Part shown: positions 1-16,824 of the stretch, one piece after another | How the letters are laid out: every line of letters begins with the position of its first letter | Position numbering within the stretch: the stretch's first letter is position 1 | Source of the DNA: Qipengyuania nanhaisediminis | GTDB lineage: Bacteria > Pseudomonadota > Alphaproteobacteria > Sphingomonadales > Sphingomonadaceae | Direction of reading: 5' to 3' | Length of the DNA: 64,000 bases | Assembly (NCBI RefSeq): GCF_900115585.1 | Contig: NZ_FOWZ01000002.1 | Location: 248,001 to 312,000, forward strand | Notes under the pieces: model-generated | Seen by the model: only the letters and a program-made list of their open reading frames with translations | What the model was told of the DNA's origin: nothing | Database searches by the model: none | Program-made: the position numbers and the translations under genes

Positions 1-723
1 GAACTGGCGGTGCGCTTCACCGACAAGCGGTGCTACTTCGTGTCCGAAGCCACGGTTTACCGTCTGCTCAAGGCCCATGATCTGATCACCAGCCCGGCCT
101 ACACGGTGATCAAGGCAGCCGAGGCGTTCCACACAAAGACCACGCGGCCGAACGAGATGTGGCAGACCGACTTTACCTACTTCAAGGTCATCGGGTGGGG
201 CTGGATGTATCTGTCGACCGTGCTCGACGACTTCTCGCGCTACATCATCGCCTGGCGGCTGTGCGCCACCATGTGCGCCAGCGACGTTACCGACACGCTC
301 GACATGGCGCTGGAAGCTTCAGGCTGCGACCATGCCAATGTGCTGCACAGGCCGCGCCTGCTCAGCGACAATGGCCCGAGCTACATCGCGGGCGAGCTGG
401 CCGAATACATCGAGGCCAACAAGATGAGCCACGTGCGCGGCGCGCCCTTCCACCCGCAGACCCAGGGCAAGATCGAACGCTGGCACCAGACCTTGAAGAA
501 CCGTGTGCTGCTGGAGAACTACTTCCTGCCCGGCGATCTCGAACAGCAGATCGCGGCGTTCGTCGAGCACTACAACCACCGGCGCTATCACGAGAGCCTC
601 GACAACGTGACGCCTGCCGATGCCTACTTCGGCAGGGCTCCTGCTATCGTGAAGCGACGAGAAAGGATCAAGCGAAAGACACTCGAACATCGGCGCTTGC
701 AACACCGCAAGCTCGCCGCCTAA
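1..723 (+). CDS. IS3-family transposase OrfB (DDE integrase core), 5' truncated by window edge
   Basis: This is the catalytic half of an IS3-type transposase, which cuts and joins the element's ends. The frame is open from base 1 (Glu-Leu-Ala-Val...), so the GTG at 10 is internal and the true start lies upstream. Catalytic residues of the rve fold are visible: first Asp in QTDFTY, second Asp in SDNGPSY about 70 residues later, and the Glu in GKIERWHQTLKN about 35 residues after that. The C-terminal stretch with YNHRRYHESL and TPADAYFG is typical of IS3 OrfB. The upstream HTH protein OrfA and any programmed frameshift are outside the window. The visible part carries no internal stop, so it may be functional. 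Family assignment is firm; the subgroup is not assigned. Confidence 0.9.
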   Translation, partial: ELAVRFTDKRCYFVSEATVYRLLKAHDLITSPAYTVIKAAEAFHTKTTRPNEMWQTDFTYFKVIGWGWMYLSTVLDDFSRYIIAWRLCATMCASDVTDTLDMALEASGCDHANVLHRPRLLSDNGPSYIAGELAEYIEANKMSHVRGAPFHPQTQGKIERWHQTLKNRVLLENYFLPGDLEQQIAAFVEHYNHRRYHESLDNVTPADAYFGRAPAIVKRRERIKRKTLEHRRLQHRKLAA

Positions 724-797
724 ACATCAATCCCAGACGAGGCCCACACTCCGTAAGCCTACGCCGCAAGTTGTGCCAAATGTTCTGACGACGGACA
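1..797 (+). mobile_element. IS3-family insertion sequence, right-hand part
   Basis: Only the right end is inside the window; the left end lies before base 1. The transposase frame (1-723) is followed by about 70 noncoding bases that finish near 797 in ...GACGACGGACA, that is TGTCCGTCGTC on the other strand, which fits the TG...CA termini of IS3 elements. The boundary is supported by the neighbour: immediately after 797 a histidine-kinase reading frame begins in mid-protein. The exact terminus and target duplication cannot be confirmed without the left end. Confidence 0.75.
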
Positions 798-881
798 GTT
801 ACGCAAACGCCCACGGTCGAAAATGCCCTTTCGATCATCGCTGAGACGTCGCGAGTTGTCGGCAAAGCCTATTTCCCGGTT

Positions 882-2246
882 GTGGTTGAGGGATTGGCAA
901 AGGCCTTGAATGTCCGGTGGGCGTTTGTTTGCCACTTCGATCCGGCAACCCCTCATCAAGCCTCTACCGTAGCTTTCTGGGATCGCGGTCCGGCCGAGAA
1001 CTTCGTATACGAGCTGCTTAACACACCATGCGCTGACGTCGCCTCTCAAGGTGTCTGCTGTTATGCAGACGATATTACAAAGCTCTATCCTTTCGACGAG
1101 ATGCTCGCCGAAATTGGCGCCAAGAGCTATGCGGGTACCGCCCTCAGATCTTTAGATGGTCGCGTCTTAGGCTTGGTCGCCGTAATGGACGACAAACCGT
1201 TTTCCGATCCTGAAATAGTCTCTGAGATAGTCGAGCTTTTTTCAGCGAGGGCGGCTGCCGAGCTAGAACGCTTAGCCAGCGCATCGTTGAATGAGCGGCT
1301 TGGCAAGATAGTCGAAGCGTCAGTTAGCGAAGCTTACGTCTTCGACAGCCGCTCCTTTCGGTTTGAACTCGTGAACCGAGGTGCTCGTGAAAATCTCGGC
1401 TTCACTATGGAGGAGCTCCGGGAGCTTACGCCATGGGATCTCAAACCCGAGTATTCGAAAGAGGATTTTCTCGCTTTTGTAGAGCCACTGCTCAGAGGTG
1501 AGGTTGAAGTTCTTCGGTTCGAAACCGTGCACATGAGAAAAGATGGGTCAACCTATCCCGTATCTGTGCAGCTCCAGTATTTCCCTGATGTAGGGGGTGT
1601 GTTTTTTGCCTCCATCACTGACGAGACAGAGCGGCGGGCGAGAGAAGAGCGCGAGAAATTGATCCTCAACGAGATGAACCATCGTGCGAAGAACGTTTTG
1701 GCGGTCGTTCAGGTTCTGGCCCGGCAAACCGCAAAACAGAATCCAGAGGACTACGTAGCGCAACTCGAGGCCAGGATCGCGGGCCTTTCAGCAAGCCACA
1801 ACGTGCTCGTGCAAAGCTCGTGGCAGGATGTGCCCTTCGAGGAATTGATCAGGTCCCAATTGGGCCATTTCGCGCACTTGCTCGGAAATCGAATCACAGT
1901 TTCCGGCCCACCCACGAGGATTAAAGCGACAGCGGCACAAGGTTTCGGCTTAGCCTTGCACGAACTCGCGACCAATGCTGCGAAGTACGGCGCGCTTTCG
2001 ACTAAGTCTGGATGCGTCGCGATTGCTTGGGATGAAGTCGACGTGGCTGAGGGACGATGTCTCAAGTTGACATGGACTGAAACTGGAGGGCCCGAAGTAG
2101 TCGCTCCGTCGAGAACGGGCTTCGGTTCATATATGATCGAAAAAAGTCTGGCCTCGCAGTTCGGATGCAAGGTCGATTTGAAGTTCGATCCAAAGGGTCT
2201 GCAGTGCCAATTCGTGGCTCCCAGGGAGCGCGTGATTTCTGAGTAA
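882..2246 (+). CDS. HWE-family sensor histidine kinase (GAF-PAS-HWE), N-terminus cut off by IS
   Basis: A cytoplasmic sensor kinase with no membrane segment. Residues 1-130 are a GAF domain, 140-250 a PAS domain ending in TDETERR, and 255-450 an HWE kinase module. The phosphoacceptor is His267 in NEMNHRAKN; the ATP-binding N box is HELATNAAKYGAL, and the LTWTE motif supplies the W and E that name the family. GTG 882 is the first available start, but the same frame is open back to 789 and the codons from 798 (ENALSIIAETSRVVGKAYF) read as the normal beginning of such a GAF domain. The native start was therefore lost when the IS inserted. The gene is either dead, translated from GTG 882 as a shortened protein, or driven from the IS. 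HWE kinases usually phosphorylate stand-alone response regulators; none is nearby. Confidence 0.85.
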   Translation: MVEGLAKALNVRWAFVCHFDPATPHQASTVAFWDRGPAENFVYELLNTPCADVASQGVCCYADDITKLYPFDEMLAEIGAKSYAGTALRSLDGRVLGLVAVMDDKPFSDPEIVSEIVELFSARAAAELERLASASLNERLGKIVEASVSEAYVFDSRSFRFELVNRGARENLGFTMEELRELTPWDLKPEYSKEDFLAFVEPLLRGEVEVLRFETVHMRKDGSTYPVSVQLQYFPDVGGVFFASITDETERRAREEREKLILNEMNHRAKNVLAVVQVLARQTAKQNPEDYVAQLEARIAGLSASHNVLVQSSWQDVPFEELIRSQLGHFAHLLGNRITVSGPPTRIKATAAQGFGLALHELATNAAKYGALSTKSGCVAIAWDEVDVAEGRCLKLTWTETGGPEVVAPSRTGFGSYMIEKSLASQFGCKVDLKFDPKGLQCQFVAPRERVISE

Positions 2247-2537
2247 TGCGACTTGGAAAGGTGGTCGGGTTTGACCATACTTCGAGGTATTGTCGTTCTA
2301 CGTGACAGTGCCATCGAACGGCAGCAAGCCACCCATCTGAAGTCGCTTTCACAGAGTTACAGATGTGCCAGGAGCAGACGGGCGGCTAACGACCCGATAG
2401 CGGAGTTTAGAACCCGGCTGAAGTTTCTGGCAATGCGGTATGGCAAAACGCTTGCCTAGATTCACAAGCAAAAATATTTTGCGATTTCGTGAGGCTTTTT
2501 AGGAACTTTGCCAAGTCAGAGCGCTTAAGGATGCACA

Positions 2538-2750
2538 ATGACTGTTCCTGAGTGGAAATTGGAAGATGCCGCGGACAAGGCCGATTCTTACCAGTTCAAA
2601 AATACCAACCCGAAACTCGTTTTCCTGTTAGCACTCGCTGCAGGCTTACTCGCAGTAGCGATAATCTTTTTCGCCTATGTTATCGTCAGTCTGTCGATCG
2701 ATGTAGGCCTTATTCCGCAGCCCCCGCGCCTCCGCGGTCTCGTCGATTAA
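2538..2750 (+). CDS. small single-pass membrane protein, unknown
   Basis: A 70-residue protein starting at ATG 2538 behind a good ribosome site (AAGGA, 8 bases upstream). Residues 1-25 are polar, and residues 27-53 (VFLLALAAGLLAVAIIFFAY) form one strong membrane helix followed by a short proline-containing tail. It precedes the polysaccharide synthase gene by about 220 bases on the same strand and might belong to the same envelope function, but this is only proximity. I do not recognise the family. A 217-base gap to the next start holds nothing I can identify. Confidence 0.5.
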   Translation: MTVPEWKLEDAADKADSYQFKNTNPKLVFLLALAAGLLAVAIIFFAYVIVSLSIDVGLIPQPPRLRGLVD

Positions 2751-2967
2751 TTCTTACCGGATCGGCAACAAATCCACGATCAGATAAGCGCAATGGCGAA
2801 GTACGCCTTGGCAGCAAAAATACCAAAGGTGAATGCGATGTCGCCGAGGCGGTCATAAATGTCGATTGCCATGGGCTGTTCTCCGTCACGGTCCAGCGGT
2901 CTTGCCGGAAGGACCTTGAAGAACACCTTCGGCACATCCTTACCGCGTTATTTACTTCTTGCCGCCT

Positions 2968-4416
2968 ATGGATCGCATGAACATGGCTGAAGTTACCCCT
3001 AACACGTTCGAAACGGTCTCTCCGGACGACGTCAAAACGCCGACTTACAAGGGCCCCGATCGGCGTGCTTTCGGCCTTCGCCAAGAGATTTCCTATTGGC
3101 GCAAACGCGCCGTTCGCAGGAACTTCATCTTCATTGCATCGCTGGCTTTCGCCACCGCATGGATGCTTTTCAGCATCTGGTTATCAGTCCCGTGGTTAAG
3201 CGATCTGGGCGAACTGACCCATCCAGCGATCGCGATTACTGTCTTGACCTTTATCGCCTACGTCCCGGGCTTTATGAACGCCTTCCTGCTGTCGACATTG
3301 GCGCTGCGTCCTTCGCAACTGAAACAAGAGCCAGAGCACTGGCCTGGCCTTACCGTTCTTGTCGCTGCGTACCAGGAAGAGCAGCTTATCGCGCAAACGC
3401 TCGAGAACCTCAGCGCACTGACCTACCCGGGGAAGGTGGAGGTGATCGTAATCGATGATGGGTCGAAGGACGACACCTTCCGCGTAGCCGAACTCTGTAA
3501 GCCTCACTTCGCCGCGAACCCGAATTACTCGCTGCGGGTCGAGCGAATGAAGCGCAACAGCGGGAAGGCTAAGGCCCTCAACCATGGGCTCGCAATGGCC
3601 GCCCACGAGCTAATCGTCACCATCGACGCCGATACGTTGCTAGAGCCAGGAAGCCTTCGATCAATGGTCGCTCACCTGTACGCCGCGCCGCCTAAAACTG
3701 CGGCGATTGCAGGTGCGATCCTACTCGCGAATCCGATGGAGAGTTGGGCGACCCGCGCGCAGCAATGGGACTATTTTCATGGCATCTCCGCAGTCAAGCG
3801 CATGCAGGGCAACTTCAACGGCACACTGGTGGCACAGGGCGCATTCTCGCTTTACCGCCGCGAAGCGCTGGAGCAAGCTGGCGGCTGGCCTGATACGGTA
3901 GGGGAAGATATTGTCCTGACGTGGTCCTTCCTGCGCCGCGGTTACATCGTGCGTCATGCCGAAGACGCCGTGGCGTGGACCCACGCGCCCGAAAGTTGGG
4001 GCGCGCTTTCCCGGCAACGTAAGCGCTGGGCGCGCGGCATGATTGAGGCGCTGGCAATCCACAAGAGCCTGCTTTCGAAGCTTCGGCTATCGACGATGTT
4101 TATCTATTGGAACCTGATGTTCATTAGCATCGACCTTGCCTTCACGCTGGCCTTCATTCCTGGCTTGCTGTTGGCGGTTTTCGGCATTTATTGGCTCGCA
4201 GGTCCGATCACTCTGCTTGTGCTTCCGCTGGCCGCGCTGTGGAATATTGTGATCTTCCGCATCCAGATGCGCATGCTGAGACGGAACAAAATCAAGATGA
4301 AGAAAAGCGTGGCAGGCTTCGTGCTTTTCGCCTTCGTTTACCCCTTTATCATGCAACCCGTATCTGTCTGGGGCTACGCCGCAGAACTATTCGGGCGAAA
4401 GAAGGAGTGGCATTGA
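2968..4416 (+). CDS. family 2 glycosyltransferase, PgaC/BcsA-like polysaccharide synthase
   Basis: A processive inner-membrane glycosyltransferase that would polymerise a sugar nucleotide and push the chain across the membrane. Membrane helices lie near residues 50-75 and 85-105; the GT-A domain follows with VIVIDDGSKDD and TIDADT (metal/UDP-binding aspartates), GEDIVLT (catalytic Asp) and QRKRWARG (the Q-x-x-RW product-binding motif). Three or four C-terminal helices follow. This layout fits PgaC (poly-beta-1,6-GlcNAc synthase) and hyaluronan/cellulose synthases. ATG 2968 is chosen; TTG 2959 or ATG 2983 are possible, and none has a strong ribosome site. The stop overlaps the next start by one base (TGATG), so the two are translationally coupled. 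No PgaB deacetylase or PgaD partner is present, so the polymer is unknown. Confidence 0.85.
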   Translation: MDRMNMAEVTPNTFETVSPDDVKTPTYKGPDRRAFGLRQEISYWRKRAVRRNFIFIASLAFATAWMLFSIWLSVPWLSDLGELTHPAIAITVLTFIAYVPGFMNAFLLSTLALRPSQLKQEPEHWPGLTVLVAAYQEEQLIAQTLENLSALTYPGKVEVIVIDDGSKDDTFRVAELCKPHFAANPNYSLRVERMKRNSGKAKALNHGLAMAAHELIVTIDADTLLEPGSLRSMVAHLYAAPPKTAAIAGAILLANPMESWATRAQQWDYFHGISAVKRMQGNFNGTLVAQGAFSLYRREALEQAGGWPDTVGEDIVLTWSFLRRGYIVRHAEDAVAWTHAPESWGALSRQRKRWARGMIEALAIHKSLLSKLRLSTMFIYWNLMFISIDLAFTLAFIPGLLLAVFGIYWLAGPITLLVLPLAALWNIVIFRIQMRMLRRNKIKMKKSVAGFVLFAFVYPFIMQPVSVWGYAAELFGRKKEWH

Positions 4417-5336
4417 TGCGCCGCCTTATAAACCTATTCAGCCTTGCAATCGCTTTAGTGACCACGCCGGTCGTTGCTCAGAGCACCGAGGGGTCTGGCC
4501 CAGCCATCGGCACCGAAGTTTTCGTTTCCACCGACAGCGACGAAACCACCGTTTGGCGGGTCGCAGGCAATTTCGACCTCCGGAATGCGCCAGATGGTTC
4601 GCGCATAGGCGTGCGCGTAGAAAAAGCGTGGTACGATCCGCTGGGGCTGGGCGCGCACGAGCGCGAGCGTATATTCCTGCAGGCTGCCGACGGATCGGGC
4701 AATGTGAATTGGTCCGTGAGCGTCGGCACCGATGGCGACACGCTCATCGGTTCGGCTTCGATCAACGACAACAAAACTTTTCGCAAAGAAGCATTCATCG
4801 AGCGTGATATCGTGGAAACGCCAATTGGCCTTGAGCAAGGTCTCTATTCTACCTTTGCGGGGGCGGCAATCGACCTGCCGGCGGACGAGAAGAACGTCTT
4901 CACGCTACTGGCAGGCGTTCAGGAATTCACGGGCGACAACGTCCGGCTGCATTTGCGTGGCAATTTCGTACATGTACTGGATAGCGATGCTGGCCTCAGT
5001 GCCCAACTACGCACGCGCTATTTCCACAGCACGGTGCCCGAGGAGTACGACTATTTCTCGCCAGAGGATTATGGACAGATCCTGCCGATCCTCCAAATGC
5101 GCCGCTTCGTTGATGGCTGGCAGCTGTTAGCCGTTGGCGGCATCGGCATCCAGCGCAGCACCGGTACCGACTGGAAACAGGCCAATTACGCCGAAGCTCG
5201 CGTGATCAGTCCGACCCAAGGCAACTGGTTTGTATCCGGCGAGGCGATCTATTCTCAGACGCCAGGTACCAACACCGTCGTGGGTTCGGGATACGATTAC
5301 TTTCAAGCACGCATCGGGCTTACGCATCGCTTTTGA
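4416..5336 (+). CDS. outer-membrane beta-barrel protein coupled to the glycosyltransferase
   Basis: A 306-residue exported protein. Residues 1-21 (MRRLINLFSLAIALVTTPVVA, cut after VVA) are a Sec signal peptide. The rest alternates polar and hydrophobic residues with many aromatic ends and finishes in ...QARIGLTHRF, the C-terminal Phe signature of beta-barrel outer-membrane proteins. ATG 4416 overlaps the synthase stop by one base, with AAGGAG upstream. The pairing suggests an export pore or sensor for the polymer made by the upstream synthase, analogous in position to PgaA but without its TPR region. The family is not recognised beyond this; the export role is inference. Confidence 0.7.
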   Translation: MRRLINLFSLAIALVTTPVVAQSTEGSGPAIGTEVFVSTDSDETTVWRVAGNFDLRNAPDGSRIGVRVEKAWYDPLGLGAHERERIFLQAADGSGNVNWSVSVGTDGDTLIGSASINDNKTFRKEAFIERDIVETPIGLEQGLYSTFAGAAIDLPADEKNVFTLLAGVQEFTGDNVRLHLRGNFVHVLDSDAGLSAQLRTRYFHSTVPEEYDYFSPEDYGQILPILQMRRFVDGWQLLAVGGIGIQRSTGTDWKQANYAEARVISPTQGNWFVSGEAIYSQTPGTNTVVGSGYDYFQARIGLTHRF

Positions 5337-5628
5337 TCCGTCCCGGCTCTTGGGATCTCGGTTGCAATTTGACGGATCGCATTCGGAAATATCTGCCAAA
5401 TCGCAGGGGCTTTCAGCTCAGCGGCTATGACCGCTGACCACCCATACTCGGACATTGGCGGTGCTCATTACCGGAGCAAAGCTGCCGGTCTGCTTTCAGG
5501 CATACGCAGGGAAAGCCTGAACGTCCGAAATGGGGGCGCAAAGCGGAAGTCATGAGATCGGCTGGCGCCAAATTGCCGGGCCTTGGCAACTGGCCCCGAT
5601 CAAACGACAGCCGGAGTCAGGGTCTGTG

Positions 5629-5934
5629 CTACGTCACTGGAGGTGGAACTCGACTGATGATGATCGACGATGCCTCCAGCTTCGCCTTCGCTAAATCGTG
5701 CGACAACTGCATCCGAAGCAACGCTGCTGCCGAAATCCCAAATGCCTTTTCGAAGCGCATTGCCATGAGAGGAGTGAGACGAGCATTACCATCCAACATT
5801 CGGGTCAGAGCTGACCTAGTAACCTGTAGGTGATCAGCGGCACTCGGTACCGTCATCCCATAGGATTTGATTAAATGTTCGCGCAGCCATGGCCCAGGAT
5901 GGATCGCAAAGCTCTCGTGCAATTCTACCGCCAT
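5629..5934 (-). CDS. HigA-like XRE-family antitoxin without adjacent toxin
   Basis: A 101-residue DNA-binding protein of the HigA/VapI type. It begins MAVELHESFAIHPGPWLREHL, contains the helix-turn-helix (PSAADHLQVTRSALTRMLDG) at residues 28-50, and has the RLTPLMAMRFEKAFG segment typical of HigA. ATG 5934 is chosen because homologous sequence begins there, although the frame stays open upstream. HigA normally represses its own operon and neutralises the mRNA-cutting toxin HigB encoded just upstream. The space upstream here (5935-6010) is too short for HigB, and the next gene does not look like a RelE-fold toxin. It may act as a free regulator or as a rescue antitoxin. The 292 bases between its stop and the outer-membrane gene show nothing recognisable. 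Confidence 0.75.
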   Translation of the reverse strand: MAVELHESFAIHPGPWLREHLIKSYGMTVPSAADHLQVTRSALTRMLDGNARLTPLMAMRFEKAFGISAAALLRMQLSHDLAKAKLEASSIIISRVPPPVT

Positions 5935-6010
5935 GAAAAAAGCCCTTCTATCGATATCCGCGATCCTTGGCCCGTCTGACCGCGTGCTGTCTGGCGCAAG
6001 CTCAGTTGCG

Positions 6011-6271
6011 TTAGCGTTCTTCTCCGAGCAGGTATCGGGTGTTGAGGGCCTCGGCGACCGCACCTTCGACGATTTCGTCGAGCGGAGTGACGATCGCGGA
6101 TGTGTGAATGCATCTTCCATCGGCAAAGCGGTTCTTGCGGTCGCTGGATACGATCCCGACTAGAAGGGGCGTGCCGGGATAGTCGGGCAGCGGTAAAATG
6201 ATCCAATCATGCAAGACGGCATCGTACCCTTGTCCTGATGCTGCTGGCGTATTGGGAAGTGAAGTCTTCAT
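6011..6271 (-). CDS. small hypothetical protein
   Basis: An 86-residue soluble protein starting at ATG 6271. It reads smoothly (LHDWIILPLPDYPGTPLLVG, then HTSAIVTPLDEIVEGAVAEA) and looks like the short proteins of unknown function found on mobile DNA of sphingomonads, where a W-x-x-x-PLP segment and a C-terminal helix recur. I am not certain of that resemblance. It shares orientation with the antitoxin genes on both sides and may be cotranscribed with the HigA-like gene 76 bases downstream. The ribosome site is weak. No function is proposed. Confidence 0.5.
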   Translation of the reverse strand: MKTSLPNTPAASGQGYDAVLHDWIILPLPDYPGTPLLVGIVSSDRKNRFADGRCIHTSAIVTPLDEIVEGAVAEALNTRYLLGEER

Positions 6272-6329
6272 TGCACACGCTCACGCGACAGGGCGAGGGT
6301 GGTAGGCGGCGAGCATGTAAATGGCCTAA

Positions 6330-6728
6330 TCATCTGTAGCGTTCGCTCAGCAAGTACCGAGCGACATCTTCCAGGTCCTTGCGCTTTCCGCTCGTCATCA
6401 GAGACATCGCGCACCTGCCTCCAAATAGCGGAGCTCGATTGGGCGCGCGCACCCAGCCTTTCGATCGATCATGGTTGAGCAGGATCACAAGCGATGCGTA
6501 GATTGAGAGGACACAGCCGATGCCTTCCAGTACATCCTTGGTTAGCGACACGTTATCGCCGGCTCGAAGACGCTCCATCCAGTCCTGCAGGACCTTTTCG
6601 TCGCCGACCCCGAGGAGGTGGCATTGCTCTGAAGCGGTCATGTCCCAATGCGCTGCGATATTACCGAAGGCATGAAGGCAAGCGCTATCTCTTTTCGTAC
6701 TTTCCGATCCGACCGAGGGCGTGCCCAT
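6330..6728 (-). CDS. MbcA/ParS/Xre-type antitoxin-like protein (DUF2384 family)
   Basis: A 132-residue protein. Residues 25-60 look like the all-helical N-terminal HTH of Xre/MbcA antitoxins. Residues 70-130 match the toxin-binding domain: a long helix, then WVRAPNRAPLFGGRCAMSLM and a C-terminal RYLLSERY. Members of this family normally sit next to a RES-domain toxin that destroys NAD+. No RES gene is visible within several kilobases. ATG 6728 overlaps the stop of the preceding gene by one base (TGATG), so it is translated in step with a second protein of the same fold. The FGG turn is normal for the family; partner and activity are unknown. Confidence 0.65.
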   Translation of the reverse strand: MGTPSVGSESTKRDSACLHAFGNIAAHWDMTASEQCHLLGVGDEKVLQDWMERLRAGDNVSLTKDVLEGIGCVLSIYASLVILLNHDRSKGWVRAPNRAPLFGGRCAMSLMTSGKRKDLEDVARYLLSERYR

Positions 6729-7027
6729 CAGATGTAAACCCCGGACTCGATTGCACCGATCATATCGATCACGAACTCAAGACCTTCGTCCGACTGCTCC
6801 GCACGTTCGATAGGTGTTTGGCCATCCAGCCAGGGATGGGACTTGTTCATGAATAGAAGCGTGGAGATCAGGTCGCCGGCATATAGACGAGTGGCGGCTT
6901 CGATAGCTGCTTGAGTTGAGCGGGCGCCGATGCCCCCGACGACCTGTACTCCGTTCTGAAGCATCTTTCGCGCTTCTGATGTGCGGCCACTTTCAAGAAG
7001 TACCGCCAGATTCAGCTCATTTTGCAT
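6728..7027 (-). CDS. second MbcA/ParS-like (DUF2384) protein, coupled to the first
   Basis: A 99-residue protein beginning at ATG 7027, chosen because GGAG lies 6 bases upstream (a TTG at 7039 is the alternative). The C-terminal half carries the toxin-binding-domain signature HPWLDGQTPIERAEQSDEG followed by a helix and IESGVYI, corresponding to the common 'hPxLdGxtPxexA..sdeG...V...L..i..G'. The N-terminal half is a helical pair (SGRTSEARKMLQNG) instead of a recognisable HTH. It overlaps the other DUF2384 gene by one base. Two different DUF2384 proteins in tandem without a RES toxin is unusual; they could pair with each other or be what remains of a toxin-antitoxin locus. Confidence 0.6.
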   Translation of the reverse strand: MQNELNLAVLLESGRTSEARKMLQNGVQVVGGIGARSTQAAIEAATRLYAGDLISTLLFMNKSHPWLDGQTPIERAEQSDEGLEFVIDMIGAIESGVYI

Positions 7028-7136
7028 GGCATGCTCCAATTAAGAGCCGCAGGAGCAGTCTTTCCGAGACTACTGTCTCGATCAAGGTTTACGGAGAGGT
7101 AATAGAAGTAGCCTCCGGCATTGTGCGCTCAGGAAT

Positions 7137-7460
7137 TCAATCATCACGTCGCGCCAATACCGCTAAGGGGCTCCATTCAAGATCCTGAGGTCGGTCACGA
7201 ATAGTTATTCCGGCAGGCAGATGGAGTTGAACCTTGGAACTCCCGCGGGTTCTTCCCACCTCTTCCCAGTCCGTAGAGATTGTTGTGACGAACCCGTCCG
7301 GGTCGACAATTTGGCAACGTTCCTTGCCTCTCCATCCAAGGAAAGAGACAGAAACATCGCTAAGCGTGTCGAGACCTTCTGCCTGCAGAAGATCGCTCAA
7401 TGCGAGAGAGAGTTTTTCCAACTCGTCGACAGCGAAAAAGCCATTAAAAGAAAAATACAT
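7137..7460 (-). CDS. hypothetical protein of the accessory region
   Basis: A 107-residue protein. ATG 7460 is preceded by GGAGG six bases upstream, a strong ribosome site that decides the start although the frame is open further upstream. It begins MYFSFNGFFAVDELEKLSLA, contains a beta-rich middle (SVSFLGWRGKERCQIVDPDG) and ends in ARRDD. No membrane segment, signal peptide or known motif is seen. It is the first gene of the minus-strand group that leads into the two antitoxin-like genes, 109 bases away, so it may be part of that operon. Function unknown. Confidence 0.5.
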   Translation of the reverse strand: MYFSFNGFFAVDELEKLSLALSDLLQAEGLDTLSDVSVSFLGWRGKERCQIVDPDGFVTTISTDWEEVGRTRGSSKVQLHLPAGITIRDRPQDLEWSPLAVLARRDD

Positions 7461-8028
7461 GCCAGTCCTCCATCTGATTGGGGCGGACCGGCAGAGCCGG
7501 GTGTTCGTAACCTGAGCTCTCGCCAAGGCGCCGCCGCCTTTAGGCGGAGCCTTGGACATGCGCGACGGCCACCCGGCCACAGATATGTGACCGGCCGAGA
7601 ACTCTGGGGTTACGACGCCCCACCGCTGGGACTCACCAGCGATGTCTGATGCGTCGCAGAACATTTGGGGCGATGCAAGGGCCTTCCCGAATCTTCCTGT
7701 AAGGGGAAATATCGCCGAAAAACCTTCGTTTTCGTCCCATTTCGTGCCATTTGGTCAAACCATTGAGGCCAAACAATAATGTGCAGGAATCGCCGTTAAT
7801 TCTGGCCAAGAATGCCCTACAAACCGAACGATCTATTCACCTATCGATCCGCGACATCGACCTAATTCCGAGCGCGCTCAAATTCGCGCTATTAGCCCAT
7901 TATTGGAGATATCACGATAAAGAACGTTATCGTGAGTTTGGTCGTTATCGTAGTATTTGATTTGTTCCAATGCTCGTTCGCCAGGAAGGGGAGGGCAGGG
8001 CCACTCCATTTGAGGGAATGAGCCAATG
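7461..8028. other. 568-base noncoding stretch with operator-like repeats
   Basis: No convincing gene. A plus-strand frame at 7751-7960 starts with TTG and has no ribosome site. The stretch is AT-rich compared with the core genome and holds the repeat group at 7913-7951. It separates the antitoxin-like genes from the recombinase operon, both of which read leftward, so it should hold the promoter of the 7137-7460 gene and possibly one end of the recombinase element. Confidence 0.5.
7913..7951. repeat. inverted and direct repeats of TTATCGTG
   Basis: CACGATAA (7913-7920) and TTATCGTG (7927-7934) form a perfect 8-base inverted repeat around a 6-base spacer. A third copy, CGTTATCGTAG (about 7943-7953), repeats CGTTATCGTGAG (7925-7936) directly, 18 bases on. 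The arrangement is that of an operator for a dimeric regulator or a recombinase core plus arm site. No protein can be assigned from the sequence. Confidence 0.6.
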
Positions 8029-8481
8029 CTAAGGTTTGATTTTCTTGGGAGAGCTCATTGGCGGCACCGCTTTCAATCTGGTGAGTGCATCAAGGGAGTC
8101 CTGATGCCGTTCGAAGAAAGCGAGCCAGGCCTTCAGTGCGCCTATTTCGCCGACCGCCGCGTACATTGCTTTGTGCGAAGCCACTAAGAGTTGCAGGTCC
8201 GCTTCCAAGGAGGCAATCTTCTGTGCCTGTGTTTCAATCTTTGCAGCCAGCGTGTTCTTGGAATCTTTTAATTTTGCTGCAGCAAGCCGTATGTTCTTTT
8301 GGCCTTCTTTAGCCTCTATGTATAGTTCACGGATGGCAGGGGGTCTCGTGATATCCGTGGGATGGCGAAACAATCTGGGCAAGCGGGCGATGATGTTCCG
8401 GGTGGTTATGTTCTCGTCCTCGAGGAGCATTTTCTCCAGCACCGCTCCAAGCTTTTCCAGATCCTGATCCGATAATGACAC
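8029..8481 (-). CDS. coiled-coil accessory protein of the recombinase operon
   Basis: A 150-residue protein. GTG 8481 is chosen because AAGGG lies 8 bases upstream; TTG 8487 is the alternative. An N-terminal helical region carries an RLPRLFRHPTDITR motif, and residues 60-105 are a clear coiled coil rich in Lys/Glu/Ala (for example LKDSKNTLAAKIETQAQKIA). It starts about ten bases after the third recombinase gene stops, so it is the last gene of that operon. Its size, coiled coil and place after tyrosine recombinases resemble TnpC of Tn554-type transposons, which helps orientation of transposition. This comparison is positional; sequence relation is not established. Confidence 0.6.
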   Translation of the reverse strand: MSLSDQDLEKLGAVLEKMLLEDENITTRNIIARLPRLFRHPTDITRPPAIRELYIEAKEGQKNIRLAAAKLKDSKNTLAAKIETQAQKIASLEADLQLLVASHKAMYAAVGEIGALKAWLAFFERHQDSLDALTRLKAVPPMSSPKKIKP

Positions 8482-8490
8482 GTACAACCC

Positions 8491-10827
8491 TTACTGCTGT
8501 GACCGGATCGCAGTATCTATCACCGTTGCTGGGCGGTCTATCGGCCTGGCGAGATCATGGCCATTCGGGAACACTTGACTGCCGGGCTTCGCGGCAATTG
8601 CCAGTTTTAGATTCTCAATGACCGTAGATGCATGAGATATCTGATTCCTGATGCCCGGACTGTCACCGGGCCGGCGCTGGGCCTCAAAGAGGTGCTGCTC
8701 CATCCGATCGAGCAGTTGATTAAGATTCTGCTCTTCTACAGGATTTTCGGTTCTGGTGAGATTTCTGCAACCGTTGAAGCATTCGAGGTGCTTCGGACAA
8801 GGATCAACCGTGAAGCTCGAAAGGCAAAATCCATACGGAGTAGCGTGGAAACCATCCGCCTCTGCAGCAAGGTATCGAAAGGCCTGTGCGTCACCTGACT
8901 CACGCTGAATCTCGAGAAATTCTTCTACAATGGGGCCTCGCATCCTTCTAGTCAGCATCAATTTAGCGGTGTCGTGAAGTCTCTCCGGAAGCCCGGATGC
9001 TTCCGGGGGAAGTTCAAGCTCGAGGATTTGTTCGCGCAAGCTCCTGTGATCATAAGCGCCGCTTTGGGCCGTGCTCTGCCTGCCATATCGCTTTGTGATC
9101 ATGGCATCGGTTATGCCTAGCCGGAATAGCTCGGTGTTCTGGAGGTGCCGAAGGCTATGGGTATTCAGGGAAAGCTTTTTGTCATCTTCCGTCTCTCCAT
9201 AGCGATCAAACAGCCCGCTCTTTTTTCCGGAAAGTTGCAAGATGATGTCGTCGGCTGCTAGTCGCCCGACAGAGAAATATTTTGTGACATCAACAATCCC
9301 GCCATTCCGATCCTCAATGAGCGCACGCGAAGGCTGAAGGAACAGGAGTTGGTGTGGATAGAAGGGGTTGCCGTCTGTCGCGATAAATGGACTGGTATCA
9401 GGCAGTTTCGTGGGCATTTCCCTCTTCACAAATTCTTCAATCTCGCTCACCAGAAAATAGCAACGCCTATCAATCGGGCCAGAGATTATTTTGCCTTTCT
9501 GGTCTCTGATCGGGGGGCCGCCTTTCTGGCTTTTCCAATACTGCCGAACTGGCTTGCATGATGTGGTGCTATAGTGGGCAGCTTGCTCCGCCCTAATCGG
9601 ATTTAAGAGTTCGCTATTGTGATCTTGCAGGTACGAATCCTTGAGGTCCGGGCTAATCGCTCGGTTCGAGATTTGAACAGATCCCGCAATCCGGGTGTAC
9701 ATCTCAGCCGCACCGACCAACGCTGTTGGCAAATATTCCGGGATCAGCCGGCCGGAAGTTGATTGAAGTTTCAAGCGCGCCCTCAATGGCGCGGTTGCCT
9801 CGCTTATCTCACCTACGAGATCCTCGATGATATCAGCAAAGTGAGGAGGGATTTCCTGATACCTCTCAACAAGACGAGACTACGCACCAGTCTGGCTACC
9901 TTGCTTTAGTGCAAAATATCGTAGCGACAGCGACTTTGAAAATCCGCCAAGTTCTCCTGCGGAGCGACCATCGACAGCGTAGTAGTCCTTCCACCGTAAG
10001 CAGTGCTCCGGGATCATAACGACTTCACCAATGCGAAGACCTGTCAGAATCTGCAGCTTGATGACGGCGAAGCGGATACGATCAGTAAACGTCCTTGGTC
10101 TCTCTGTGAAAACTATCCTTACCAGTTCCCAGAAGGCGGCCGTCTCAGGAAGCTTTTCCGCAGATTTGCGTTCATTCAGCTCGCTCCGCTTGGCGTGCAC
10201 ATTGTAGTTGTTTCCCTCACGTAATTTTTGACGAGAGACCCTCTCTTCCCCCGCTAGAGCGCTGGCACTCTCATATGGTTTTGCATAGGTCACCAGAGGG
10301 CAGTATTCACTCAGGTGGTTCGCATCGAATAGGACCTTAGCGACCATCGACAAGTTCATCGCGAGTTTACCCGAGGCTCCCGATAGCAACGCAACGTTGT
10401 AGGCCTGTTGGAGATCATCGGGGCGCAACTCCCATGGTGGAGTTTGACCTGCGCAAAGGGAAATCGTCCTTATTGCTCGCGCATGCGCAGAAGCATTCGA
10501 AACTTTGTTTTGCTTGATAAATAGTTCATGTGAAATGCTGGCCTGCAGAAACTCACGCCAATCCTCCGACATTAACTCGGGTGGTTCACAATTAGTCTTC
10601 GGACATTTTGAGACCTTGCGAAGCAACTCAATATCTCGACGTAGATGCCCAAAATTGGACATCCAAATTTCTCTGTCTGGAGGCAAACCGACCGCCGAAT
10701 TCAGACCCCAGCGTTGAGTTTTGGCAACCTTGCCAGTCACATTGTCAAAATCGGGATTCCAACTGAGGCCCCGTCCGATAGCTGTGGATCGCGCGAGCTC
10801 TAGCCAATTAGCGTAGAATTGGTTCAT
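8491..10827 (-). pseudogene. third tyrosine recombinase, interrupted by one in-frame TAG
   Basis: A reading frame of 778 codons from ATG 10827 to the stop at 8491, broken only by an amber codon at 9882-9880 (codon 316). Before the stop the frame holds a SAM-like core-binding region and the first catalytic Arg265 in LTGLRIGEV. After the stop, the frame continues without a shift (SRLVERYQEIPPHFADI...). It holds the rest of the catalytic domain: NTHSLRHLQN (His557, Arg560) and RYGRQSTAQSGAYDH with the Tyr nucleophile. A Cys cluster near the C-terminus (FCLSSFTVDPCPKHLECFNGC) is typical of this recombinase family. Neither fragment (9880-10827, 315 aa; 8491-9786 from an internal TTG, 431 aa) has a complete active site. 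The ATG overlaps the stop of the second recombinase by 4 bases. Confidence 0.8.
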
Positions 10828-12338
10828 GACGGCTGCTCTTTGAATTGGTCAACGAAAGCCTGGGCGATGGATATTGTTCGCTTAAGTTGCACGTAAGCGG
10901 GCGACCTCTCATCACCGAGACCAGCCTTGAAGAAATCCATCACCACCGTGCGAAGCGTATCGACAACATGCTGATGGATTTTAACGTCGCTTACCGCTAG
11001 AAACTTGCGGCACCCATAGCAGCTGAGAACCGGATTTTTTTGGCATAGCGATTGCGGTGAGTCGCACGCTCCGATCCCGGCGATCGGTGAGCCATGAGGC
11101 ATTGCTCCTATCTGACGCTCTTCGGGAATGCCCATCAAAGCTCTTTTGTCGATTAATCTTGTTCGATGAATCTCTGGTAGAACCGAGTAAACTGGCGAGA
11201 TTGCCAAGGCATCGTTGACAAGTTTGGCTTGGTTCGGACTTTGATCGAAATAGACGTTCCCGACTAAAACGCTATTGTGCTGCATGAAGTCAGCTAGTTC
11301 GTCCGCTGAAGCGCCCATATCAACTTGGCGCTGTGCACTTGTGTGACGAAAGTCAGTAGCGGTCCAGCGCGTACCGGTAAGAGATTGAGTTCGATCTGCG
11401 ATGCACCTGGTAACTTCATCGGGGGTAAGACCAAGAAGCTTTGGGTTCGGATCTGCGGCCGTATCTTCCATGTCTCTGAGCTCAAGAAGCGATCGAACTA
11501 TTTGAGCCCAATCTTGCCTTACTTTACGAGTGATATGGATGCGCTGGGAGTGTCGTTGCTTCTTGATCACAGCGGCTGTGATGTGGACCACGCCACCTTT
11601 GTGCACTCGGACATCGGCCACCTTGATACGAGCAATTGTTCCACATCGAAACGCGTGTTGATCGGCAAGAATTATCGCGGTCGCATCGATCAACCTGCGG
11701 AGGTCTACGCTATCATTGCTCGATAGCGATTTCGCGGTCTCATCAATGAAACTATAGATTGCCTTTTGGTCCGCGACGGGGATGAAGCACTCACCTGATC
11801 GGACGATTGCAAAGGGATCTTGACGAGGCGAAGGCAGGTTCGAAACCATGGAATGGTAGGGAGGCGCCCAGCTACCCACACTTTCTCGACAAAAGCAGTG
11901 AAGGACCTTTTTTAGGCAGCTTGCCTCAAACGCATGCGTGAATTCTGGCAGCAAAGCTGTTGACCAAACATCTAGAACCTTTTGCGGCGTTTGATGGGCT
12001 AAGAAGTTTACAATTTTCGGTGTGGCTTTCTCCACGAGTGCGAAAATATGGTTGAGCCAGATTTTCGCGCTGGACGGATCACCGGATTGTAGCAGATGGG
12101 CAGTAATTAATACTATGACCCCACTTTGAAATTCGGACAAAGGCGCAAGGTCATATTGAAAAATCCTCCCGTCGTCGTGAAGGATAATTTCTTTTGACGC
12201 GCTATCGAATCTAAGAATTCGGTCCTTCTCTTCAAAATCATCCCAATATTTCACTGCGCGGGGCAGTGGGGGCAGGGGAGGCTCGCTTCTGCCTTCGGGA
12301 AACGAGGCTTTGGCAAATTTGGCAGGGAGGGTACTCAC
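10824..12338 (-). CDS. second tyrosine recombinase/integrase of the trio
   Basis: A 504-residue site-specific recombinase. The N-terminal 230 residues are a diverged DNA-binding region. The catalytic domain shows Arg in HAFRCGTIARI, Lys in AAVIKKQRHSQ, then TDFRHTSAQ and the nucleophile Tyr in HNSVLVGNVYFD. In the box-II motif, which is usually H-x-L-R-H, the first His is replaced by Thr (T-D-F-R-H), a variation seen here directly. A C-terminal Cys motif (CDSPQSLCQKNPVLSCYGC) could bind zinc. ATG 12338 overlaps the stop of the first recombinase by 4 bases and its own stop overlaps the third gene by 4, so the three are translated as a set. Such trios act together on element ends. Confidence 0.85.
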   Translation of the reverse strand: MSTLPAKFAKASFPEGRSEPPLPPLPRAVKYWDDFEEKDRILRFDSASKEIILHDDGRIFQYDLAPLSEFQSGVIVLITAHLLQSGDPSSAKIWLNHIFALVEKATPKIVNFLAHQTPQKVLDVWSTALLPEFTHAFEASCLKKVLHCFCRESVGSWAPPYHSMVSNLPSPRQDPFAIVRSGECFIPVADQKAIYSFIDETAKSLSSNDSVDLRRLIDATAIILADQHAFRCGTIARIKVADVRVHKGGVVHITAAVIKKQRHSQRIHITRKVRQDWAQIVRSLLELRDMEDTAADPNPKLLGLTPDEVTRCIADRTQSLTGTRWTATDFRHTSAQRQVDMGASADELADFMQHNSVLVGNVYFDQSPNQAKLVNDALAISPVYSVLPEIHRTRLIDKRALMGIPEERQIGAMPHGSPIAGIGACDSPQSLCQKNPVLSCYGCRKFLAVSDVKIHQHVVDTLRTVVMDFFKAGLGDERSPAYVQLKRTISIAQAFVDQFKEQPS

Positions 12339-13828: not shown

Positions 13829-13960
13829 GGGCCGGTTTTGGGATTAGCCGCATGGATTGCGGTGAACGCGGTGATCGTCTGGCAAAGTGAGCTAAACTTG
13901 ACTCGGAGAACGGACTAGATTGAAGGAATTGCTACAAGCACGAAATGGCCCGGCCTTAAC

Positions 13961-13974
13961 ATAATATATATTAT
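13961..13974. repeat. perfect 14-base AT palindrome
   Basis: ATAATATATATTAT reads the same on both strands, 68 bases before the mazG start. It could be a regulator site, a promoter -10 region, or the core of an insertion site at the border of the accessory region. Chance occurrence in AT-rich DNA is possible. Confidence 0.35.
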
Positions 13975-14042
13975 CACACCAACATAGGCATCCGTCGCTT
14001 CAGCATCTCCATGTAGAGCTTATCCCCACTCCGGTAGACATT

Positions 14043-14798
14043 ATGACCCAGAATATAGACCGCCTCCTGACGATCATGAAACGTCTGCGTGACCCGGAGC
14101 GCGGCTGCGAATGGGATACGGCCCAAAGCTTCGAAACCATCGCACCATACACGATCGAGGAAGCCTATGAGGTTGCCGATGCGATCGAGCGCAAAGACTA
14201 TGAGGATCTCAAAGGTGAACTTGGCGACCTTCTTTTCCAGGTCGTCTTTCACGCTCAGATGGCCTCAGAGGACGATCATTTCGATTTCGGAGCGGTCGTC
14301 GAGACGATCTCGGACAAGATGGAGCGTCGTCACCCCCACATCTTCGGGAACGAAGGCGGCGTCATGGAAGAGACCCGATGGGAAGATCTCAAGGCTGCGG
14401 AACGCAGTGAGGCAGGATCGGACAGCGCCATGGACGGTGTCGCGAAGGCACTGCCGGCGCTGATGCGCTCGCAGAAGCTTCAAAAGCGTGCGGCTCGTCA
14501 TGGCTTCGACTGGCCGGACGCCGAAGGTCCGCGCGCAAAGGTACTCGAGGAAATCGAGGAGCTAAGCGATGCATCACCCGAAGAGCGCGAAGAGGAAGCC
14601 GGCGATTTGCTATTCGCCGCTGTTAATCTCGTGCGCGCTTACGGCATCGATGCGGAACAGGCCTTGCGTGCCGCAAATGCCAAGTTCGAACGGCGGTTCC
14701 GTTCGATGGAAGACCTGGCCGGCGGAGATTTCGACACGCGTTCACTCGAAGCGCAGGAGGAGCTTTGGCAGGCGGTCAAACGCGCCGAAAAGTCCTGA
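14043..14798 (+). CDS. mazG: nucleoside triphosphate pyrophosphohydrolase MazG
   Basis: Hydrolyses (d)NTPs to the monophosphate and pyrophosphate, cleaning the nucleotide pool. At 251 residues it has the usual two tandem MazG domains. The first shows CEWDTAQSFETIAPYTIEEA and the Mg-binding EEAYEV...ELGDLLFQVVFHAQ acidic motif. The second shows EEIEELSD...EEAGDLLFAAVNLVR. It is the first gene of the core genome after the accessory region and lies tail-to-tail with hflX (stops adjacent at 14798/14799). No clear ribosome site precedes ATG 14043, but the conserved start of the family fits it. Confidence 0.95.
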   Translation: MTQNIDRLLTIMKRLRDPERGCEWDTAQSFETIAPYTIEEAYEVADAIERKDYEDLKGELGDLLFQVVFHAQMASEDDHFDFGAVVETISDKMERRHPHIFGNEGGVMEETRWEDLKAAERSEAGSDSAMDGVAKALPALMRSQKLQKRAARHGFDWPDAEGPRAKVLEEIEELSDASPEEREEEAGDLLFAAVNLVRAYGIDAEQALRAANAKFERRFRSMEDLAGGDFDTRSLEAQEELWQAVKRAEKS

Positions 14799-16139
14799 TC
14801 AGAGGCTTTCGAACTGGCCCAGTTCCTTGGGATTGAGCCTGACCGTGAAGCGCCTCATGGGCCCATTGGCCCCCTCCTCCAGCGCCTCTTCCTCCAGAAT
14901 GTCGCCGTGAGCATGAAGCCACGCGATCCGGCGTCCGTCGCTGGCCGGTAGTTCAAACTGGCGTACCGTGGCTTGGGACGTCAGGATTTCCCCCACCCGC
15001 TCGAGGAATTGGGGCACCCCTGCCCCGCTTAGCGCCGATAGGGCGACTACGTCATCGGAAGCTTGGGCCAGCCCGCCGAGTTCTTCGGCTGTCTCTTCGT
15101 CGAGCAAATCCCACTTGTTCCACACTTCCAGAATCGGGATCGCTTCAGTTCCGTCCTCCGAACTGATCACATCTAGGTCGCGCAAAACATTGAGAACTTG
15201 TGTTTTTTGTGCGTCCGCCGAAGGGTTCGACATATCGCGCACATGGCAGATCAGGTCCGCCGCGGTCACCTCTTCCAAGGTCGCCCTGAATGCTGCCACG
15301 AGCTGTGTCGGCAAGTCCGAAATGAAGCCGACCGTGTCGGACAATATAGCCTTCTCGACCCCCGGGAGCGCGATCGCCCGCATCGTCGGGTCCAGGGTTG
15401 CAAACAGCAGGTCTTCGGCCATTACCTCGGCGCCGGTCAGCCGGTTGAAAAGCGTCGATTTGCCCGCATTGGTGTAGCCGACAAGCGCTACGACGGGCCA
15501 CGGGGCACGCTCGCGCCGCTCACGGTGAAGGCCGCGGGTCTTGCGAACCTGTTCCAGTTCCTTGCGCAGGCGTCCCATGCGCTGGCGGATCATACGCCTG
15601 TCGGCCTCGATCTGCGTCTCACCAGGCCCGCCCAGAAAGCCGAAGCCACCACGCTGGCGCTCAAGGTGGGTCCAACTGCGCACAAGGCGGCTTTGCTGGT
15701 AATCAAGATGGGCGAGTTCGACCTGCAAGCGCCCCTCGGCCGTGGCCGCACGTTCGCCGAAAATCTCGAGGATCAGGCCCGTCCGGTCGATGACCTTGCG
15801 CGCCAGCTTGTCTTCTAGATTGCGCTGCTGGATCGGGCTGAGCGCACCGTCGACGACGACCAATTCCGCCTCGTTCTGTTCGCAAGCGATGCGGATGTTT
15901 TCCACCTGCCCCGACCCGAACAGGAGGTTTGGTTTCACGTCGCGGACGGGCAGCACGAAGCTGTCAGCCACGACTATGCCGATGGCAAGCGCAAGGCCTT
16001 CCGCTTCCTCGAGACGGCTTTCCGCATCGAGGTCATAGCCCATACCCCTGATGTCGGGGCACACGACGAGGGCCCGCGCACCGCGCGAGACTTCGCCCAT
16101 CAGATCGTCATCGAAGCTCAGTGTTCGTCCTCGTCCCAA
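14799..16139 (-). CDS. hflX: ribosome-splitting GTPase HflX
   Basis: A GTPase that binds the 50S subunit and splits stalled ribosomes. An N-terminal HflX domain ([16 protein letters not shown], the [16 protein letters not shown]-like region and the [16 protein letters not shown] coiled segment) precedes the G domain with the P-loop [12 protein letters not shown], switch [21 protein letters not shown] and NKWD. The frame opens at TTG 16139, inside the 3' end of hfq; the first ATG is 16100 (14799-16100). The upstream codons ([19 protein letters not shown]) resemble the family N-terminus, so the non-ATG start is preferred, with moderate certainty. hfq-hflX linkage is conserved in proteobacteria. 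Confidence 0.93.
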
Positions 16140-16654
16140 TCCTCGGACAGATCGACCGGGGTAGCAGGTTGGATAGTGGATACGGCGTGCTTGTATGCAA
16201 GCTGCACATAGCCATCGCGTTCCAGCATCATGCAGAAAAGGTCGTAGGCGGCGATCTTTCCCTGGAGCATGACGCCGTTCACGAGGAACATCGTCACCTG
16301 CGCCTCTGCCTCGCTAACCCGGCTGAGAAAGACGTCCTGCAACAACCGCTGCTTTGCGCCCGATCCCTGGCTGGCGAACTGCTCGGCATCCACCGGTTGT
16401 CCGGGCATGATCGTGCTGACCGCGTGCTTGTAGACGAGCTGCGACTGTCCGTCGCGCCGCAACAGGATCGAGAAATTGTCGAACCAGGTGACAATGCCCT
16501 GCAGCTTCACGCCCTTGACGAGAAATACCGTCACCGGGGCCTTGTTCTTGCGCAGCAGGTTGAGAAATGCGTCCTGCAAGCTCGGGGCCTTGCCCTTGCC
16601 TTGGGGTTCCTGGGCAGCGCGTGGTCGCGCAGATAGGGTGCGTTCGCCGGCCAT
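16118..16654 (-). CDS. hfq: RNA chaperone Hfq with two tandem Sm domains
   Basis: Hfq forms a ring that pairs small RNAs with mRNAs. Normal Hfq has one Sm domain of about 70 residues; this 178-residue protein has two. Domain 1 (about residues 22-85) runs from [14 protein letters not shown] to [10 protein letters not shown]; domain 2 (about 100-163) runs from [16 protein letters not shown] to [10 protein letters not shown]. Both keep the LQD proximal-face Gln and the YKH motif; domain 2 is more diverged on its surface. ATG 16654 is chosen because AAGGAG lies 8 bases upstream; ATG 16660 is in frame but too close. Duplicated Hfq is known in Zymomonas and other sphingomonads, where a trimer of two-domain chains would make the ring. 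It is followed by overlapping hflX. Confidence 0.95.
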
Positions 16655-16824
16655 AATCATCGCTCCTTCTTTTTGGCGCCTGCATCGGCAGACGCAATCT
16701 GGACGCTCTTGCGGCGTCCGGGGTTCGGGCAACGAGTCCCGCAACCAGGGGCAATGTGACGTTTCCGCGCTTTTTCGGCAACAGGATTATTCTACTGTCG
16801 CAAAAGCGCAGGTTGTGGCCGGGC

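Follow-up and report, generated by a model that had tools for sequence, protein, structure and literature searches.

The island beside mazG in Qipengyuania nanhaisediminis is very probably an element of the GInt type that inserted into the chromosomal dif site, and in which a later change of one nucleotide replaced a glutamine codon of ginC by TAG, with the loss of GinC and of the ability of the island to move by itself. All positions given below are those of the window, the whole stretch of 64,000 nucleotides that was analysed.

The gin operon and the stop in ginC

The minus strand carries an operon of four frames of 408, 504, 778 and 152 codons, in which 4-nt overlaps join the first to the second and the second to the third (Table 1). 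By the number, order and sizes of its genes it corresponds to the ginABCD type of GInt islands, the type proteins having been compared by layout alone, and an identical gene order is found in Qipengyuania xiamenensis, in the genome G321 and on several plasmids. The fourth gene, ginD, has homologues at the equivalent place of the operon that are 91% identical in Q. xiamenensis and 35% in G321, and no Pfam family matched its product above the cut-off of that family.

Table 1. Features of the island and its flanks in the window.
Feature	Position	Strand	Evidence or remark
ginA-type gene, tyrosine recombinase of 408 aa	12335..13561	-	open; PF00589 E 1.9e-13, over cut-off; overlaps ginB by 4 nt
ginB-type gene, 504 aa	10824..12338	-	open; PF00589 E 1.8e-05, under curated cut-off; 4-nt overlap with ginC
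ginC-type gene, the operon's third tyrosine recombinase	8491..10827	-	translation; alignment; weak Pfam Phage_integrase match
In-frame TAG, codon 316, within a variable stretch beyond K308	9880..9882	-	translation; alignment
ginD-type gene, small protein of 152 aa, TTG start	8029..8487	-	homologues at matching place of operon; absent, like the ends of the island, from the original prediction
Cargo common with the Q. xiamenensis island, including two adjacent Xre/MbcA/ParS-type ORFs at 6330-7039	5431..8028	-	
Accessory DNA absent from the Q. xiamenensis locus compared: HWE histidine kinase, glycosyltransferase, ORF without Pfam family	798..5430	+	
Portion of an insertion sequence of 1511 bp, identical in all three copies (contigs C2, C8, C9)	1..797	+	
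Conserved island terminus of ~75 bp, ginA side, common to three elements at dif	13877..13955	-	sequence comparison
6-nt core TGTTAA, common to ginA-side junction, far junction and empty site	13956..13961	-	comparison of occupied and empty sites
Chromosomal dif, 28 nt, positions 1-26 kept beside the island	13954..13981	-	weight matrix; published dif table; conserved place
mazG, host gene flanking dif	14043..14798	+	

Translation of the ginC frame (window:8491-10827:-) gave 778 codons and a terminal stop, and confirmed the single internal stop of the assembly that had first drawn attention to the gene, a TAG at 9882-9880, beyond which the same frame is open again; recombinase-like sequence stands on either side. 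Matches to Pfam Phage_integrase are weak, with an E-value of 0.23 for the C half of the window's ginC alone and of 0.0031, under the curated cut-off, for the full-length GinC of Q. xiamenensis. An alignment of GinC from the window with 15 others proved more informative about the residues concerned: R265 (in the motif TGLR), K308, H557, R560 and Y592 are kept in all 16 sequences, the H-x-x-R box reads H557-S-L-R560 and Y592 stands 35 residues past H557. K308 is taken here to be the catalytic lysine, and the spacing of Y592 is presumably that of XerD. As all five residues are invariant, and R265 and K308 precede codon 316 while H557, R560 and Y592 follow it, the stop separates what are predicted to be the catalytic residues of GinC. 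Its place between Arg265 and the His-x-x-Arg box (codons 557-560), as originally described, was therefore upheld, both boxes being invariant, and the suggestion that neither half would be active alone fits the alignment. The accompanying statement on the intactness of the other two recombinases is borne out by their frames, both of which are open, but not by the H-x-x-R box of GinB, which reads Thr-Asp-Phe-Arg, with Thr for His, in the window's genome and in Q. xiamenensis alike.

A search of genome contigs yielded one relative, Q. xiamenensis 1XM1-15A, the nearest found, which carries the same island with an open ginC. Its GinC is 95% identical in amino acids over the C-terminal half and colinear across the stop, and its codon 316, which the original prediction had proposed to compare, is a glutamine codon that differs from TAG at one position. 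The stop, the open homologue and the conserved residues to both sides of codon 316 are direct observations. The ancestral residue of this variable column was probably Gln, inferred from a single genome because the gin operon was found in just one close relative.

Two matches were obtained from 397 genomes of the family, the gene itself with its one TAG and that of G321 (40% identical, ginC without a stop), and two from 387 genomes of the class, again the gene itself and that of G796, where the ginC match holds one TAA. Plasmids gave 25 matching records at 1e-20, from which 15 ginC genes were sampled and 12 found open, one of these being only 643 aa long; the alignment excludes L106 (degraded) and L112 (frameshift), and the ten records outside the sample include H51, interrupted by an IS5 transposase gene, and H52-H55, which are partial. 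GinC from an operon on a plasmid of Pseudomonas koreensis shares 35% identity with the GinC of Q. xiamenensis; a scan of viral contigs with the latter detected no relative.

Damage to gin genes has several forms. The ginC of Rhizobium binae has a stop at codon 278 and is annotated as two CDS, that of R. beringeri TP37 is frameshifted and lies in two CDS (TP24 has no such frameshift) and that of S. meliloti L6-AK89 is degraded. The ginA of G321 is split by ~1.3 kb, and the ginB genes of R. binae and S. alkalisoli are each annotated in two pieces. With gin genes broken in several other elements such breakage is not rare, and the TAG by itself is an ordinary nonsense mutation in a gene of a mobile element.

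The chromosomal dif site and the ends of the island

The identity of the dif site was examined with a weight matrix made from 31 published sites. It scored 30.6, compared with 15.5-47.5 for the published sites and 14.5 for the best shuffle, and with as many as 3 mismatches allowed it is still the only such site in the genome. It is intergenic and at a conserved place in relatives: an exact 19-mer is found beside mazG in 27 of 30 loci of the genus, the present one included, and the last 21 nt of the empty site in the closest congener, G333, are shared with the Hahella dif in the table of PMC2731167. The profile of GC skew over the 64-kb window is weak, too weak to prove a terminus. Among ten congeners in which the mazG region was inspected, the next host gene adjoins dif directly in nine and the site is occupied in one (G441); over the congeners compared, three sites are occupied as against nine that are empty.

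Comparison of occupied and empty sites defined both ends of the island. Similarity to G333 (94% over 2684 bp) ends at position 13956, inside GATAATATATATTATGTTAA, and contig C8 of the window's genome carries the far end of the island together with the host DNA that flanks the empty site on that side. The ginA-side junction runs from dif through TGTTAA and then into GGCCGGGCC, the far junction reads CCGCTCAG(A/C)CTGTTAA and then host DNA, and the empty site consists of dif through TGTTAA and then host DNA. Both ends of the island and its target, dif, are likewise observed directly. The exchanged core amounts to dif positions 21-26, in the outer XerD arm and not at the centre, and positions 1-26 remain on the ginA side. 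Host XerCD is unlikely to be the integrase of the island, since the core lies in the outer XerD arm and not at the centre of dif; integration by host XerCD in the manner of IMEX was rejected for this position of the core.

The right end was recovered from 3 of 60 genomes of the genus, namely the window's, G441 and G446 (by its coordinates Q. xiamenensis), and a reversed control pattern from none. The element of Q. xiamenensis is ~36.9 kb long. That of G441 (2647-11863 of its locus, L090) is a 9.2-kb element at dif with both ends as in the island and without gin genes; it holds a frame of 1884 codons with glycine-aspartate-rich repeats and was perhaps moved in trans. GInts have a 3' end that is short and rich in AT; the GC content of the last 200 bp of the far end is here 50% as against 61% in host DNA, the corresponding values being 48% in Q. 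xiamenensis and 59% in the gin-less element. A 43-bp intergenic sequence is >90% identical in the three genomes (window 2362-2404, L004 of Q. xiamenensis 10851-10893, L090 2918-2960).

The gin genes differ by 2-9% from those of the Q. xiamenensis island whereas neighbouring mazG differs at 28% of sites, a disparity that points to horizontal transfer of the island. Both ORFs at 6330-7039 end in an Xre/MbcA/ParS-type domain, and in Q. xiamenensis there is a difference of 4 bases in the frame of the second. The stretch at 798..5430 is probably further cargo. Copies of the insertion sequence stand at the starts of contigs C8 and C9 and at window 1-797, and the true neighbours across them are uncertain; none of the copies showed a recognisable target-site duplication. 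Were C8 joined to the window across the insertion sequence, a compact island of ~23 kb would result. The assembly joins other DNA at the insertion sequence, not C8, and a 10-kb piece of that DNA had no match in G333 in a search run without a positive control. On the other side of dif, at 16118-16744, a 208-aa ORF has, by eye, what appear to be two Hfq-like domains in tandem.

Age of the stop and proposed loss of mobility

The course of events considered most probable begins with an island of the GInt kind, with ginABCD at one end, which would have used recombinases of its own to enter dif in the outer XerD arm, so that positions 1-26 of the site stayed next to it. After its kinship with the Q. 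xiamenensis island was set, a change of one nucleotide would have converted the Gln codon of ginC to TAG. Translation would then stop after 315 residues to give a product with the DNA-binding part, R265 and K308 but without H557, R560 and the nucleophile Y592. GinC would thereby be lost, and the expression of ginD may be lowered through polarity. From this we infer loss of protein function and, by analogy, loss of mobility: the island would be unable to excise or integrate by its own means because each gin gene is essential in GInts, where mutants in each of ginA to ginD formed no circle and did not integrate according to the results available from Bardaji et al. 2017 (PMC5385486).

Estimates of dN/dS for ginC between the window and Q. 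xiamenensis are 0.135 for the N-terminal part (bootstrap 95% 0.078-0.217) and 0.126 for the C-terminal part (bootstrap 95% 0.071-0.207), with overlapping ranges. Those for ginA and ginD, 0.40 and 0.39, are higher but based on few changes, with bootstrap upper limits above 1, and support no conclusion. Values of ~0.13 in both halves, together with the open colinear homologue, indicate one gene cut by a stop and not two adjacent ORFs. Since a long time without selection would have raised the C-terminal value, the TAG is probably young relative to the divergence from Q. xiamenensis, with dN/dS summing both lineages. Use of dN/dS as a clock for the mutation was rejected, as the sum over both lineages sets an upper limit alone. 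The view that the module had been frozen recently by one point mutation thus gained from both the Gln codon of the relative and the low and equal dN/dS of the two halves.

Mobility might have been preserved in trans, by gin proteins of another island or by the remaining GinA, GinB and GinD. The ends of the island look intact and the gin-less element of G441 has the same ends at dif; nevertheless this is unlikely, in that no second gin operon was found in the window's genome (the C half of GinC gave a single match) and every gin gene is reported as essential in the experiments described in PMC5385486. About as unlikely is an error of assembly or sequencing, or a minority variant of the culture, with the gene itself intact. 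The genome is a draft of 12 contigs and the TAG is known from the assembly consensus, the other three gin genes are open and dN/dS indicates past constraint on ginC. Against this, the difference is a plain substitution and not an indel in a homopolymer, and Q. xiamenensis aligns cleanly on either side of it.

Occasional read-through of the TAG, which had been raised as the alternative to a frozen module and would give a low, regulated level of full-length GinC, is highly improbable. Constraint on both halves of ginC and the variable stretch around codon 316, which tolerates several residues, would be in keeping with it. The amber suppressor tRNA that it had been proposed to look for was not found, however, none of the 44 tRNAs of the genome having a CTA anticodon, and release factor 1 (RF1) is present, so that read-through is unsupported by the tRNA and RF1 searches; moreover, neither the closest homologue nor the other 14 aligned GinC have a stop at this column, that of R. 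binae lying 38 codons earlier and at no common position. Natural encoding of ginC as two proteins that end and start at the TAG is scarcely credible and was rejected on the alignment. The TAG does leave two ORFs, with a TTG at 9786 as the start of the second, and ginC of R. binae is annotated as two CDS; but ginC is a single frame in the closest homologue and in 14 of the 16 aligned sequences, R. binae has its split at a different place and the TTG is 31 codons past the stop. Mutation of an intact ginC in an island already related to that of Q. xiamenensis remains the favoured explanation.

Plasmid dif-like sites and known elements

The dif matrix was also run over 17 gin loci, a locus passing if its best site scored above all 100 shuffles (first-order resamplings) of that same locus. 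A dif-like site was found 136-483 bp before ginA in 12 of the 17 operons, which are related to one another, so that the counts are not independent trials; five of nine passed among the loci added after the idea of dif had arisen. Five of the 17 failed the scan. The best sites of L125 (R. ruizarguesonis; score 6.6, 218 bp before ginA) and L127 (Paraburkholderia; 11.3, 127 bp before ginA) were at the expected place but not above their shuffles, and the scan revealed no dif-like site at L086 (G321), L128 (P. koreensis) or L130 (C. metallidurans). A dif-like site beside ginA was seen at L103-L107, L122-L124, L126 and L129, on plasmids of Bradyrhizobium, Sinorhizobium, Mesorhizobium, Rhizobium, Caulobacter and Cupriavidus.

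The flank of the element on S. meliloti pEm1132b is also present on other Sinorhizobium plasmids, as judged from 4 of 203 records. Two of these (L131 and L134) depart from similarity at the end of the dif-like site and have no gin genes nearby; the other two plasmids share ~20-30 nt of the end of the element, again with no gin genes. The dif-like site thus occurs without the element on Sinorhizobium plasmids too.

These comparisons favour a general interpretation which is likely, if less secure than that of the single island. A subgroup of GInts in the alpha- and betaproteobacteria would target chromosomal dif and dif-like Xer sites of large plasmids, with the crossover by the recombinase trio in the XerD arm, in its outer half, and with dif positions 1-26 left beside the element, so that segregation in the host can be spared. 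Elements without gin genes and with the same ends would share the site, and the copy in the window would have been immobilised by the TAG in ginC.

Several known systems resemble the island in part. GInts, in the account of PMC5385486 available, likewise have a trio of tyrosine recombinase genes followed by a small fourth one, in the same order and at one end, cargo that begins past ginD, site-specific insertion with an exchanged core of 6 nt and a GinC that is the largest and least recognisable recombinase. Their short imperfect direct repeats with exchange of 6-7 nt have a counterpart here in TGTTAA, found at both ends and in the empty site. The present island differs in targeting dif, the targets reported in that account being an ABC-transporter gene, ssb and a ribonucleotide-reductase gene, and in having one gin gene broken. 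A further difference is that five residues of the catalytic type are present in 16 GinC here, while the GinC of GInts is reported as lacking the first arginine (PMC5385486) or the catalytic motif (PMC10214605) in the passages available; GinC of the present subgroup, to judge by the alignment, keeps the tyrosine-recombinase residues that the literature calls missing.

Strand-biased circularizing elements (SEs) share a four-gene module of recombinases with a small protein and a 6-bp footprint, but have the order intA-tfp-intB-srap, other protein families and, by the account of the paper as available, a distribution in Gammaproteobacteria only (PMC10214605). RIT elements also have three adjacent overlapping tyrosine recombinase genes; in the portion of PMC3414803 consulted, however, they are ~3.5 kb long and have inverted repeats, and neither a fourth gene nor cargo is reported for them. 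The island has a fourth gene and cargo, its ends are by inspection not inverted repeats of one another, and it was judged by layout to lie outside the RIT family, for which no match was obtained in Pfam or NCBIfam. IMEX such as LME-1 are likewise islands at dif, yet in the description available from PMC9765430 they carry a dif mimic and recombine via host Xer, whereas the present island leaves one dif, has its core at positions 21-26 and not in the central hexamer, and has recombinases of its own. A single dif in the genome, an off-centre core and the presence of recombinase genes thus set it apart.

The machinery of transposition of Tn5053/Tn402 is a different one. These 'res site hunters' are comparable as mobile elements that target the resolution site of another replicon, although in the text available from PMC7765201 the sites are res sites of serine resolvases and not Xer sites. 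A search of the literature, in which most subscription papers were outside the scope, found no paper that describes a GInt at dif or Xer sites, and the word dif has zero occurrences in the available text of PMC5385486 and PMC10214605.

If the general interpretation is true, the dimer-resolution site, which is present in nearly every chromosome and many large plasmids and separates joined chromosomes or plasmids, joins the targets of recombinase-trio islands. This would explain how one integration module finds a safe and conserved site in very different replicons, and would provide a sequence signature with which both ends of such islands can be defined. The division of labour between GinA, GinB and GinC would also become testable on a site of known architecture, with its XerC arm, centre and XerD arm.
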